A stretch of DNA of 64,000 bases from Acholeplasmatales bacterium (GTDB taxonomy: Bacteria; Bacillota_I; Bacilli_A; Acholeplasmatales; Anaeroplasmataceae). The DNA is taken from assembly GCA_017449215.1 (NCBI GenBank), contig JAFSJY010000022.1:1-64000 (forward strand), in the 5' to 3' direction. Positions 33,190 through 39,335 of the stretch are shown piece by piece. The position numbers and the translations under genes are program-made. Position 1 is the stretch's first letter. Each line of letters starts with the position of its first letter. Below the pieces are notes generated by a model. That model made no database searches. It saw only the letters and a program-made list of their open reading frames with translations, and was not told the DNA's origin.

Positions 33190-36100
33190 TTAGCTTAAAA
33201 TGAACTTCAAATCATCTAAAGTAAATCCAGTTATAGATTTATCATTATCAGAAATAATATCCTCAATAACCTTCTTCTTAATATTTTGAAGCTCTATTAC
33301 CCTTTCTTCAATAGATTCTGATGCCACAAGCTTAATAACCTCGACATTTCTAGTTTGACCAATTCTATGTGCTCTATCAGATGCTTGATTTTCTGCACTT
33401 ACATTCCACCAAGGATCTAGATGAATTACAGTATCGGCTCCAACTAAATTTAAGCCTGTACCTCCTGCCTTAAGTGATATTAAATAAACCTTAATATCAT
33501 CATTTTTATTAAATTCATCTGTTTCAAGCTTTCTTTGCTCAAGCTTAGTGTCACCAGTAAGCATGAAATATTTAATATCTAATTCCTTTAATAAATCAGC
33601 TATTAAATTTAAGCCACCTACAAATGATGAGAATATTAATATTTTATGACCATCATTTATATATGAAGGAATTAATTCCCTTAAATAATCAAGCTTACCT
33701 GAATCAGGCGCGCATTCCTCTATAAATAATTTAGGAGCGACACAAATCTGTCTTAATCTAGTTAGATAAGCAAGCACCTCAATGCTAGAGCCTGAATCTA
33801 GCTTAGTTTTAGCATCATTGATATGAGCATCATAAATCTTTCTTTGATTCTTGCTCATATCACAAGATACAATTCTTTCATATTTTTCAGGTAAATCCTT
33901 TAATACCTCTTCCTTTGTTCTTCTTAATATAAAAGGAGCTACCTTCTTTTTAATAATTTCATTAAATGCTTCATTATTTAAATATCTTGCCTTAAATATA
34001 TTTAAATCCTGTAAATAGCCTGGCATAACAAAATCAAAAATACTCCATAAATCAATTATGTTATTTTCAATAGGTGTACCAGTTAGGGCAAATCTATGAT
34101 TTGCATCTATAGATTTAACAGCGACACTCTTTAAGGCAGTAACATTCTTAATGTTTTGGGCCTCATCTAATATTAAATAATTGAAATTAATATTTTGATA
34201 TAATTCAATATCATTTCTTAAAGAATCATAGGCAGTAATATAAATAACCTTTTTTTCAGGATTAATACCTAAAATTCTATTTTTTCTAATATCAGAATTA
34301 CCATAAATCATTCTAACATCAGTTTCACCATCAAACTTTTCAAACTCAGTATACCAGTTAAATAATAAGCTCTTTGGACATACAATTAATGAAGGTAATT
34401 CATTCATATCTGCTTTAATAGATGTAATAACCTCTAATGTCTTACCTAAACCCATATCATCAGCTAAAATACCACCCATATGATATTTAGATAATATAGA
34501 TATCCATTTATAGGCTTCCTTTTGATATTTTCTTAATCTAGTACCCTCACTTAAATTAGGTAGCTTAATATCTAATGATTTAAAATTCTTAATATCTAAT
34601 ACCATCTTAGAAATATAATCATCTATACTACAATTATCTAAATAAGCATATGCCTTTAAGGCATCATATGTTTCTATTCTTTGCTTCTTATATAGATTTT
34701 TAATATCTAATCTTAAATCATCTACTGCCTCATAGAATTCATTAGATTCATTATCATTTAAATCAATGATTCTATCATTATCTAATAAGACAAAGTTTTT
34801 CTTTTGTCTTATTGCCTTCATAATTAAGGTAAGCTCATCCTCTGAATATTCAGATTCCTCTAAAAATGCCTCCATTATATTATTCTCATATTGAATCCTA
34901 ATAGATGGAGTAACAAGCTTAGCTACAGTCTTATTTTGAATAGTATCAGATAAATATACATCACAAATTCTTCTTAATTCAGAAAAATCTAAATTGAAGA
35001 ATTGTAATATTAATCTTTGATCTATTAATTCATTTAATTCAACAAAGCCTAAGTCTGTTAAATAATTAGTATATCTAATAAATTTAGCCTTATCAGATGA
35101 ATTCATAAATGTATCAGATGTTAATAAGGCATCCTTTTTATATACCTTAGTATCACAAGTAATCTTCCCATTTTGATAATCAAAATAAGCTTCTATTCTA
35201 ATTAAATTATCTAAATATTCATTTCTAATAACATCAGGTACATTTATATAATCAATAAAATTAGGATAAATATCATCCATAAATTCCTTCTTTACAATTG
35301 ATAAATCCATATTGTTATTATCACCCGCAAAGCTAATTAAATCCTTACAATTATCATTAGATAATATTTTATCAATTATATGATTATTATTATCTATATA
35401 ATATAAATCCTTTAATTCTAATAAGTTATCCTTATCAATATTAGATTTTAAAATATAATTATCATCAATAGAAATATCTGGCTTTATTTCATCTAATCTA
35501 ACTAAATAATCATTACCATTATAATTAATATTTTTACCCTTTAATAAATTTAGGATAGCCTCAAATGCCTTCTTAGGTAATAATAATCTTCTATTATTAG
35601 AAATATCATAATCATCATATGGTAATGATAATAAATAATTTAATACATCCTTTTCATTATCATTAAAATTATCAATATTATGATTAAATTCTAATTCCTT
35701 ACCATATTGAAAATATGAATTATTATCAATATATAATAAGAATTCCTTGATATTTTTAACTATATAGTATTTATTAATACCAACTCTTAATCCCATTTCA
35801 AATGATGTTTTATAATTTCTATATGAAACTACCTTATTAAATTCATATTCAATAGATACCTTATTAACTAGAGATTTTATATTCTTATTTAAGATAGATT
35901 TAAAATCTCTAATTTTATTTAAATATTCCTTCTTCTTTACTCTTTCCTGAATAGTTCTAATCTCTTCATATTTAGAATTATATTCTTCTTCAAAATTAGG
36001 ATAATTTTCTTTAACAAATTGATAAATCTCATTTTCATATTTATCTAAAAATTGCTTATCATATCTAGATGAAAAAGTAAAATTACCATCATAATTTAAT

Positions 36101-37527
36101 GTTAAAACAATCATATTACGCAAGTATACTGTGATAGTTACTCTTACTTTACCTGTTTGTTGGTCATTAAATATTTTTACCTTATAATCATAATATCTAA
36201 AAAAGGCATAAGGATTAAATACAGTAAAATTTACTTTATTTCTATCTAATAAATAAGCTATATAAATAGATTCTTTATCCTTAGACATCAATTCTAATAT
36301 TTTATTCTTATCAAATTTAGTACCTAAATCATAATATATCAAAATTACTTCAAATAATCTTTTAGGATCTATATCATAATAAACATAATAGTTATTAATC
36401 AATAATTTCAAAGCATCTCTTGTTTCACCTAAACAACTTATGTAATCTAATTGCTTAGCATAAGGTAATAGACTAAAATCATCTAAATTTAAAAATGTCG
36501 GTTGATATTTTTCTATTATGTATATTTTTAAATCAGTGTCTACTCTTTCATACATATTTTTTTTAACTAAATCAAAAGACCAATAATTAGACATGTAACT
36601 AGAATATACAGAATCAATTAGTTTTTTATCTATTGTTATTTTATCTAATAAAAATTCAGAATATATATCTATATCTCTTGATGAGTTCATAGTCAAAGAA
36701 AACAATTTATTATATTTTTGATTGGCTATATAAGATATTATTCTTGACTGAAAACAATCTGTTTTTTTAAGATATTTATCATCATTTATTTCATAATAAA
36801 TATGCTCATCATTTTTTAATCGTCTTAATATAGAATTAATTCTTGGATAATTAAATAAAATATCATCAAAAATAATATGTGTATGCATATTAAAAAATAT
36901 CATTGAAACAATGATTTGTAATTTATTATTATCAGCTATTCTTTCTATATTATCTAATTCATTTTTTAAATCTAGGATATCACATTCAGTTAAATAATAG
37001 CTAAAGTTATCTAATATATTTAAATTATTTCTAGTATTTAATCTAGATTTAATTTCATCTACATATTCCTTTAATGATGAGCTTCTATTATCAATAGGCT
37101 TTAGCTTATTTAATCTATTAGATAATTCTATTAATGTCGCGGCAACATGCTTACAATTAGCAGTTTGAACAGGGCATGTACAATTACTTCTAAAGCCCTT
37201 TTGACTAAATGTAACTGTGACACGATATTTTTGAAGCTGTGAGCCATTTACAGTTGCCGATAAATTAGAATCCATAATAGCTATTTTTTCTATTCTATTT
37301 TGATCTAATATATTCTCAGCTCTTTCAATTGATATTTCTGGTAGCATATCATAAAAATCACCAGATTTAATTATATTAATAGCATTATCTGATATCTTAG
37401 TTAAATCATAAAAATTTTCTTCTATCTCTTCACCATTTTCATATAAAACAGTAGCGGTGTCTAAAACCATTTTTTTAATTATTCCAATTCCATTTATAAG
37501 GGAAAATACAAAATCATTTTCTTTCAT
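33190..37527 (-). CDS. SWIM zinc finger / SNF2-family DEAD-like ATPase
   Basis: 1445 residues from ATG 37527, with a GGAGGTG site; the TTG 15 nt upstream overlaps that site. An N-terminal SWIM finger has C116, C118, C125 and H127 (CxCx6CxH). A long middle region of about 850 residues, presumably the SNF2-associated domain, follows. The RecA-like motor lies in the last ~440 residues: ADDMGLGKT (Walker A), LILDEAQN (Walker B), ALTGTPIENN, and the C-terminal ASDRAHRIGQ arginine-finger motif. Bacterial SWIM-SNF2 proteins translocate on double-stranded DNA, and most are uncharacterised. It is flanked by the NYN-LOTUS gene upstream and a small coupled helical gene downstream. Confidence 0.92.
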   Translation of the reverse strand: MKENDFVFSLINGIGIIKKMVLDTATVLYENGEEIEENFYDLTKISDNAINIIKSGDFYDMLPEISIERAENILDQNRIEKIAIMDSNLSATVNGSQLQKYRVTVTFSQKGFRSNCTCPVQTANCKHVAATLIELSNRLNKLKPIDNRSSSLKEYVDEIKSRLNTRNNLNILDNFSYYLTECDILDLKNELDNIERIADNNKLQIIVSMIFFNMHTHIIFDDILFNYPRINSILRRLKNDEHIYYEINDDKYLKKTDCFQSRIISYIANQKYNKLFSLTMNSSRDIDIYSEFLLDKITIDKKLIDSVYSSYMSNYWSFDLVKKNMYERVDTDLKIYIIEKYQPTFLNLDDFSLLPYAKQLDYISCLGETRDALKLLINNYYVYYDIDPKRLFEVILIYYDLGTKFDKNKILELMSKDKESIYIAYLLDRNKVNFTVFNPYAFFRYYDYKVKIFNDQQTGKVRVTITVYLRNMIVLTLNYDGNFTFSSRYDKQFLDKYENEIYQFVKENYPNFEEEYNSKYEEIRTIQERVKKKEYLNKIRDFKSILNKNIKSLVNKVSIEYEFNKVVSYRNYKTSFEMGLRVGINKYYIVKNIKEFLLYIDNNSYFQYGKELEFNHNIDNFNDNEKDVLNYLLSLPYDDYDISNNRRLLLPKKAFEAILNLLKGKNINYNGNDYLVRLDEIKPDISIDDNYILKSNIDKDNLLELKDLYYIDNNNHIIDKILSNDNCKDLISFAGDNNNMDLSIVKKEFMDDIYPNFIDYINVPDVIRNEYLDNLIRIEAYFDYQNGKITCDTKVYKKDALLTSDTFMNSSDKAKFIRYTNYLTDLGFVELNELIDQRLILQFFNLDFSELRRICDVYLSDTIQNKTVAKLVTPSIRIQYENNIMEAFLEESEYSEDELTLIMKAIRQKKNFVLLDNDRIIDLNDNESNEFYEAVDDLRLDIKNLYKKQRIETYDALKAYAYLDNCSIDDYISKMVLDIKNFKSLDIKLPNLSEGTRLRKYQKEAYKWISILSKYHMGGILADDMGLGKTLEVITSIKADMNELPSLIVCPKSLLFNWYTEFEKFDGETDVRMIYGNSDIRKNRILGINPEKKVIYITAYDSLRNDIELYQNINFNYLILDEAQNIKNVTALKSVAVKSIDANHRFALTGTPIENNIIDLWSIFDFVMPGYLQDLNIFKARYLNNEAFNEIIKKKVAPFILRRTKEEVLKDLPEKYERIVSCDMSKNQRKIYDAHINDAKTKLDSGSSIEVLAYLTRLRQICVAPKLFIEECAPDSGKLDYLRELIPSYINDGHKILIFSSFVGGLNLIADLLKELDIKYFMLTGDTKLEQRKLETDEFNKNDDIKVYLISLKAGGTGLNLVGADTVIHLDPWWNVSAENQASDRAHRIGQTRNVEVIKLVASESIEERVIELQNIKKKVIEDIISDNDKSITGFTLDDLKFILS

Positions 37528-37554
37528 TTCAGGCACCTCCAAACATTTTATATT

Positions 37555-38403
37555 TTAAAATGGTAAATCATCATCGTCATCTAATTCTTCTCTAAATACT
37601 TCAACAAATTCATTCCCAAAATACTCATTTTCTTTTTTTGCTTTCTTCTTAGTTGAAGACTTTGCTTTTTTCTTTTTAGGCTCATTCTTGGCTTCAACTT
37701 TAGGTTGTGGCTTTGTTGGCTTAACATTAGAATCCCTAACAGCCAAGAAATAAGTATTCTTAATACCCTCAGATATATCTAATTCCTTAAATTCATTCTT
37801 GAAAAAATCAATTGATTTATTATATCCATAGCTTCTAACATCGAAGTCTGGATATGTTTTAATTAATGATTCACATACTAATGACATTTGACATCTTCCG
37901 TTATTAGCATCTAATACCTGGAGAGTAAATTTTTTAACTTTTTCTAAAGGTAAAGAACTACTCTTCTTTTCACTAGTTTTAGTAAATAGGTTTTCAATAT
38001 AAATAAATTTTGTACAAGAGGCTCTATAGGATTCAGGTGAATTAGACTTACCAATACCTATAACCTCTTTTCCCATACTTCTCCATTCACGACAAAGTGG
38101 AGTATAGTCTGAATCTGAGGCAACAATGATAATTCCATCTATATATGGTTTTTCATATAATATCTTCATTCCCTCAATAACAAGTGATATATCTAATGAA
38201 TTTTTACCATTAGTAAAATTCATAGTTTGCACACAGCTTATAGCGTGCTTTTGACATAATGAAATCCAAGGCTTAGTTTGGAATGTAGTAAAATCTCCAA
38301 TTAATAATCTAATTGGAGTATCACCATATTTTGAAATTTCTTGGAATATTTCATCTAATGCAGGCTTTGCATTTTCAGAATCTATTAATAATGCATATTT
38401 CAT
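37555..38403 (-). CDS. NYN (LabA-like) nuclease domain + OST-HTH/LOTUS protein with SSB-like C-terminal tip
   Basis: 282 residues in four parts. (1) NYN/PIN-like nuclease domain, about 1-140, with acidic active-site residues D8 and E10 (LLIDSEN), D71 (LDISLVIEGM) and D97/D99 (ASDSD). (2) An OST-HTH/LOTUS winged helix, about 150-215. (3) A Lys-rich, probably disordered linker, about 225-265. (4) A C-terminus ending EELDDDDDLPF. The last residues match the acidic tip of bacterial single-stranded DNA-binding protein (DDDIPF/DDDLPF), the docking peptide for RecO, RecQ, PriA and others. NYN-LOTUS proteins act on RNA; the SSB-like tip suggests recruitment to replication or repair machinery. It lies 5 nt after the pseudouridine synthase and 27 nt before the SNF2 gene. 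Confidence 0.9.
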   Translation of the reverse strand: MKYALLIDSENAKPALDEIFQEISKYGDTPIRLLIGDFTTFQTKPWISLCQKHAISCVQTMNFTNGKNSLDISLVIEGMKILYEKPYIDGIIIVASDSDYTPLCREWRSMGKEVIGIGKSNSPESYRASCTKFIYIENLFTKTSEKKSSSLPLEKVKKFTLQVLDANNGRCQMSLVCESLIKTYPDFDVRSYGYNKSIDFFKNEFKELDISEGIKNTYFLAVRDSNVKPTKPQPKVEAKNEPKKKKAKSSTKKKAKKENEYFGNEFVEVFREELDDDDDLPF

Positions 38404-38408
38404 TTTAT

Positions 38409-39335
38409 TTACTTCTCTTTCTTAAATAATGCTTTAAATGTAGAAGGCATATTAGCCTCAAACTTTAATATTTCTCCATTCTTGGGATTCTTAATTTCTA
38501 AGATTGAGGCATGAAGGCCTAATCTCTTTAAAGGATTTTTAGTATATCCATATTTTTCATCAAATACAATTGGATGTCCTAAATGATTCATATGAACTCT
38601 AATTTGATTCTTTCTTCCAGTATCAATTAATACTCTTAATAATGAATATTCATTATTTTCATTTAAAACCTTATAATTTGTAATTGCTAGCTGTCCACTC
38701 TTATCAGGAGATACATATACTAAATTATTTTTATTTTCCTTTAAATAGGTTTTAATTGTATCTTCCTTTTTAGGCATTTTACCTTCTACAACAGCATAAT
38801 ATTCTCTTTTAATTACATAATCATTCCAATTTAATCTTAAAATAGAATGAATATAAGGATTCTTTGTAAATATTAAAACACCAGATGTTTCCTTATCAAT
38901 TCTATGAACTATATAAGGTCTTATCTTTTTATCAGTCATCTCTAAATATTTAGAAACATATAGATAAGCAGATTCAGTATCATTATCTGATTCTACAGAT
39001 AATAAGCCAGCTGGCTTATCTATTGCAATAAAATCCTCATCCTCATAAATAATTTCAATCTTTGGTGGTCTTTTCTTAGGAGCACCATTTTTCTTATTAT
39101 TATCTCTTACAGGATTCTTAGCAATTTTAACCTCGTCCTCACGCCCAAGCATAAAATTAAATTGAGTAACTACATTACCATTAACTAATACCTGATGATT
39201 AGATAATATATTCTTTACATTATTTCTAGATGTATTCATCTTTTCTAATAGGAAGGATAATAATTCCTCACTCTTTTTAGCCTTAAAGCTTTGAGTATAT
39301 ATTATTTTTTCCTTTACTTCTTTATTTGGCTTCAC
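38409..39335 (-). CDS. RluA/RluD-family pseudouridine synthase
   Basis: 308 residues from a GTG start (39335) with a GGAGG site 9 nt away, inside the 3' end of glpK. An N-terminal S4-like RNA-binding domain (TSRNNVKNILSNHQVLVNG) precedes the catalytic domain, with the nucleophile Asp in VHRIDKETSG and LLIDTGRKNQIRVH (here VLIDTGRKNQIRVH) downstream. It isomerises uridines in rRNA or tRNA; the exact target cannot be read from sequence. It is part of the long operon with glpK and the NYN-SNF2 genes. Confidence 0.92.
   Translation of the reverse strand: MKPNKEVKEKIIYTQSFKAKKSEELLSFLLEKMNTSRNNVKNILSNHQVLVNGNVVTQFNFMLGREDEVKIAKNPVRDNNKKNGAPKKRPPKIEIIYEDEDFIAIDKPAGLLSVESDNDTESAYLYVSKYLEMTDKKIRPYIVHRIDKETSGVLIFTKNPYIHSILRLNWNDYVIKREYYAVVEGKMPKKEDTIKTYLKENKNNLVYVSPDKSGQLAITNYKVLNENNEYSLLRVLIDTGRKNQIRVHMNHLGHPIVFDEKYGYTKNPLKRLGLHASILEIKNPKNGEILKFEANMPSTFKALFKKEK

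Follow-up and report, generated by a model that had tools for sequence, protein, structure and literature searches.

Bacterial genome maintenance has its central docking signal in the C-terminal tip of SSB (DDDIPF or DDDLPF), a signal that SSB normally shares with no other protein. In the 64,000-nucleotide stretch of Acholeplasmatales DNA analysed here (the window), a predicted NYN-LOTUS nuclease ends in the same residues, which raises the question of whether a protein of this kind carries a mimic of the SSB tip and, if so, what such a tip might do for it.

Architecture of the nuclease and its SSB-like end

The gene, the parts of its product and the two flanking genes lie as follows:

37555..38403, minus strand: NYN-LOTUS protein gene (282 aa, ATG start, TAA stop)
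37993..38397, minus strand: NYN (PIN-like/LK) nuclease domain, residues 3–137 (Pfam PF01936, invariant columns, likeness of the model to the MARF1 NYN domain 5yaa)
37798..37944, minus strand: OST-HTH/LOTUS domain (Pfam PF12872 match to residues 154–202; predicted model folded to about residue 225)
37591..37728, minus strand: Lys/Pro-rich disordered linker, residues 226–271 (low pLDDT, K+R content)
37558..37590, minus strand: acidic C-terminal tip EELDDDDDLPF, residues 272–282 (last six identical to the genome's own SSB tip)
38409..39335, minus strand: RluA-type pseudouridine synthase, the upstream gene (Pfam)
33190..37527, minus strand: SNF2-family helicase with SWIM zinc finger and SNF2_assoc domain, the next gene downstream (Pfam)

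The translated reading frame ends in ...FREELDDDDDLPF, preceded by the Lys-rich linker, exactly as an initial annotation had read it from the ORF at 37555–38403 (EELDDDDDLPF past a Lys-rich linker). The NYN plus OST-HTH architecture given there is borne out by Pfam, in which both domains score above the curated cut-offs (PF01936, 85.7 bits against 24.2, E = 5.7e-24; PF12872, 27.8 bits against 23.8, E = 2.4e-6), and the acidic D/E site that it called intact is indeed so, in that D8, D71, D97 and D99, together with N11, are invariant across seven homologs. AlphaFold2 predicted residues 1–141 and 150–225 to be folded (pLDDT mostly 70–90) and residues 226–282 to be disordered (pLDDT below 50, and 31–39 over residues 231–282); Lys and Arg make up 31% of residues 221–272. 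The top solved-structure match to the predicted model was the NYN domain of MARF1 (5yaa), and the profile of the nuclease also matched a bacterial OST-HTH structure, 2kpm, with the winged-helix layout present. NYN-LOTUS proteins are regarded as RNases in the domain literature (PMC2848206), and the protein is probably, judging from its sequence, a single-strand RNase with a LOTUS RNA-binding domain.

The genome that contains the window (G000; 2.05 Mb, 98.7% complete) belongs to the genus Anaeroplasma of the Acholeplasmatales. The C-terminus of its own SSB reads ESFNVQVADDDLPF and ends in VADDDLPF, so the last six residues of the nuclease match those of the host exactly; the comparison with the genome's own SSB that the annotation had suggested thus gave identity over DDDLPF. 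SSB and the nuclease were the only genes with DDLPF found in this genome. A second, short SSB-like protein adjoins thymidylate synthase and is without the acidic tip, and a 387-aa protein (L021, C20:2074), which by eye we take to resemble a replication initiation factor, ends in KQEEVPF.

A pattern scan of 55 genomes of the family for DD[ILVFM]PF followed by a stop returned 43 sites, comprising 37 full-length SSB proteins, two contig-edge pieces with SSB-type tails, two NYN-LOTUS nucleases (those of G000 and G003) and two other small proteins. At the amino-acid composition of the window, about 0.14 such ends would be expected per 85,000 proteins, an approximate figure for the genes of all 55. 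In this family the ending occurs far more often than composition would give and belongs almost entirely to SSB, so that the nuclease stands out as a true exception.

Conservation of the tail among orthologs

Among 27 genomes of Anaeroplasma, a genus of rumen bacteria, the nuclease is present in five, where its tips read REELDDDDDLPF (G000), REEIDDDDLPF (G003), REEIDDILDL (G016), TIMDDDLSI (G001) and TIVEDDLAL (G022). The Pro-Phe end is present only in G000 and G003 and absent from the other three (DDILDL, DDDLSI and EDDLAL). Conservation of the last six residues, by which the initial annotation had proposed to judge the tip, therefore breaks down in three of the five orthologs, and strict SSB mimicry kept genus-wide was rejected, the exact tip being found in two orthologs only. 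Loss of the tip through a frameshift in G016 was rejected as well, there being no LPF-coding remnant past the stop. Common to all five orthologs are a C-terminal acidic-acidic-x-Leu-x-hydrophobic end and, ahead of the last ten residues, a basic linker with 31–40% K+R over 42–70 residues. Between G000 and its nearest ortholog, G003 (78% identical overall), the tip is identical at 10 of 11 positions and the linker at 16 of 34, with a further 11 linker residues unaligned.

No tail of the Anaeroplasma type was found outside the genus among about 105 distinct NYN-LOTUS C-termini, nearly all of them from Bacilli, and in many NYN-LOTUS relatives a second LOTUS domain stands in place of the tail. Phage and plasmid homologs exist but are distant only; the survey of their tails took in the three viral-contig matches, which have none of this type, and a wider search of the phylum returned mostly the same class of homologs. 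The best reading of these sequences is that the tail is Anaeroplasma-specific. Literature searches on NYN with LOTUS and SSB, or on Anaeroplasma with NYN, found no report. At the level of sequence the NYN-LOTUS protein with an SSB-style tail is real, unusual and lineage-restricted.

SSB itself ends in VADDDLPF in G000, G003 and G016 and has an altered tip in G001 (...DDDSDTLPWL) and G022 (...DDDNDTLPWL). The nuclease tip equals the SSB tip in G000 and G003 only: in G016 the SSB retains DDDLPF and the nuclease ends in DDILDL, and adoption of LPWL by the nuclease was not seen in G001 or G022, whose nucleases end in DDDLSI and EDDLAL. The other LPWL or FPWL matches translated in these two genomes were short spurious frames, SSB excepted. 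Covariation of the two tips was rejected, the nuclease departing from SSB in G016, G001 and G022. Because the match is limited to G000 and G003, any true mimicry would belong to a single branch, unless a looser tip binds too. The exact tip probably reflects one evolutionary event, since it is supported by two related species only; by our own estimate, the chance that a tail already acidic and Leu-x-hydrophobic would arrive once at LPF is perhaps a few per cent.

In A. bactoclasticum and two relatives (L062 of G001, L061 of G022 and L063 of G013) the main SSB ends in LDDD[SN]DTLPWL and not in the near-universal DDDLPF, and G013 has a second SSB, with a canonical tip, besides its LPWL-ended one. 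At a contig end of G016 (C104), about 1.5 kb from that genome's own SSB, lies an SSB fragment (L195) whose last 22 residues are the same as in the SSB of G052/G053, which represent a different genus of the family; it is a possible assembly chimera or transfer.

Readings of the tip

We favour, at a probability of about 0.42, the reading that in the window's species and its nearest relative the nuclease tip fits into the pocket by which SSB-interacting proteins hold the SSB tip, which would bring the nuclease to ssDNA, R-loops or stalled forks or let it compete there. Under this proposal, an NYN-LOTUS RNase would have gained, within Anaeroplasma, an SSB-style appendage consisting of a flexible basic linker and an acidic, hydrophobic-ended tip, and in at least two species (the window's and its nearest relative) that tip reproduces the SSB tip faithfully. 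The tip would dock on SSB partners, RecO among them, with PriA, RecG and others as candidates; as the carrier of the tip, the nuclease would be expected to bind the partners of SSB and not SSB itself, and once docked it would be recruited to SSB-coated DNA or would rival SSB there. The nuclease shares the layout of SSB, a disordered linker and then a terminal acidic tip, and a RecO gene is present in all five nuclease-bearing genomes. We infer that the tip binds, what it binds, where the nuclease works and that it has RNase activity, and likewise its recruitment to replication forks. Since NYN-LOTUS proteins are regarded as RNases (PMC2848206), nascent RNA or R-loops would be likelier targets than fork DNA. 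More tentatively still, we suggest that an NYN-LOTUS RNase may have arrived at the SSB hub signal by convergence and may occupy the pockets of SSB partners, which would seat an RNA cutter at ssDNA, R-loops or forks.

The initial annotation had proposed that the nuclease uses an SSB mimic to join or compete at replication forks. In its favour are the identity of the tip with that of the host SSB, the retention of the tip in G003 as the linker diverges, and the encoded RecO; what did not hold is conservation of the exact tip, which three of the five orthologs lack, and about 100 other Bacilli homologs have no such tail. If SSB-tip docking is the true account, the nuclease could join or displace SSB partners, tying an RNase family to replication or R-loop repair.

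Almost as likely is that the tail is a general acidic, hydrophobic-ended one, [DE]D[DI]Lx[FLI]-COOH, which either regulates its own protein, mimicking nucleic acid as it folds back onto the Lys-rich linker, the LOTUS domain or the nuclease surface, or binds a non-SSB partner, with LPF in two species as a chance variant. The loose consensus and the Lys-rich linker are kept by all five orthologs and Pro-Phe by only two, the nuclease tip does not track the SSB tip between species, and the acidic tip of SSB itself folds back on the nucleic-acid-binding domain (PMC7145534). Such a tail does not, however, account on its own for the exact identity with the host SSB or for the preservation of the tip between G000 and G003.

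An acidic low-complexity end that finishes in LPF by accident and has no selected function is unlikely. Non-SSB cases do exist, in that two unrelated DDxPF-ended proteins occur in the 55 genomes, and the exact tip is backed by one evolutionary event only, but this account sits poorly with the 0.14 or so such ends that composition predicts among some 85,000 proteins, with a tip far better conserved than the neighbouring linker, and with an acidic Leu-x-hydrophobic end kept throughout the orthologs.

A role of the LPF end in marking the protein for ClpXP, as shown for SsbA of certain Streptococcus mutans strains, is very improbable. We rejected it on the ground that ClpP did not turn up in G001, G003, G016 or the window's genome, which is 98.7% complete. 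In S. mutans UA159, ClpXP degrades GFP that ends in LPF or DDDLPF, but the signal is strain-specific and goes unrecognised in E. coli and the other streptococci tested (PMC5143411). ClpP is patchy in Anaeroplasma, the same search having found it in G021, G022 and G026 and not in G007 or in any nuclease-bearing genome besides G022. Least probable of all is a sliding-clamp-binding motif of the QLxLF or QLxLxL type: all five tails close in Leu-x-hydrophobic, much as that hexapeptide does, but the defining Gln and first Leu are absent from all five, with acidic residues in their place.

Related systems and gene neighbourhood

MARF1 is not known to carry an SSB-like tail. That NYN-LOTUS ribonuclease (PDB 5yaa, 6fdl) provides the nearest solved NYN fold and likewise joins NYN to LOTUS, but it is eukaryotic and has several LOTUS domains. 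The bacterial LK-nuclease (DUF88/NYN) plus OST-HTH proteins (PMC2848206; PF01936 plus PF12872) have the same domain order, an intact acidic site and a stand-alone gene; the Anaeroplasma nuclease has, in addition, a disordered Lys-rich linker that leads into an acidic tip. About 100 other Bacilli homologs are without this tail, and relatives often have the second LOTUS domain in its place. With the SSB C-terminus (DDDIPF/DDDLPF) the nuclease has in common its last six residues, identical to those of the host SSB, their position at the extreme C-terminus and the disordered linker before them; unlike SSB, it has no OB-fold, its linker is basic where that of SSB is Gln/Asn/Pro-rich, and Pro-Phe is not conserved among its orthologs.

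A precedent for an RNase at work near SSB is E. coli RNase HI, which the SSB tail brings to the replisome and which is likewise proposed to act at SSB-coated DNA and forks (PMC11253446), but the polarity is opposite, since RNase HI binds the tip whereas the Anaeroplasma nuclease carries it. Non-SSB proteins with LPF ends are on record in S. mutans, namely an EbfC-family and an AbiC-family protein (PMC5143411). The LPF-ended ClpXP substrates of that species have the same LPF or DDDLPF end as the nuclease, but the role of the end there is degradation, and ClpP was not found in the window's genome.

The RluA-type gene adjoins the nuclease gene in G000, G003 and G016 and lies one gene off in G001 and G022; the SNF2 helicase gene is directly downstream of the nuclease in the same three genomes and is not beside it in the other two. 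An adjoining SNF2 helicase would fit nucleic-acid remodelling. The helicase in the window likely starts at the ATG at 37527 rather than at the TTG at 37542, because its orthologs in L025 and L026 begin MKENDF or MKANDF.

SSB-tip mimicry could extend to a broader class of non-SSB proteins, since two more unrelated DDxPF-ended proteins occur in the same family; a DDxPF end on a non-SSB protein would serve as a simple search rule for other users of the SSB hub.

One of these two proteins (L186:101–397, minus strand) is 98 aa long, ends in YKDDDLPF and overlaps, at its end, an AAA ATPase gene (Pfam AAA_22) that we take, by eye, to be ExeA/TnsC-like; it is a second candidate SSB-tip mimic, possibly of mobile-element origin. 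The other (L185:534–1070, plus strand), which brings to three the non-SSB proteins of the family with an SSB-like tip, is a 178-aa protein with no Pfam match that has CxxC-like motifs and ends in IEDDDIPF.
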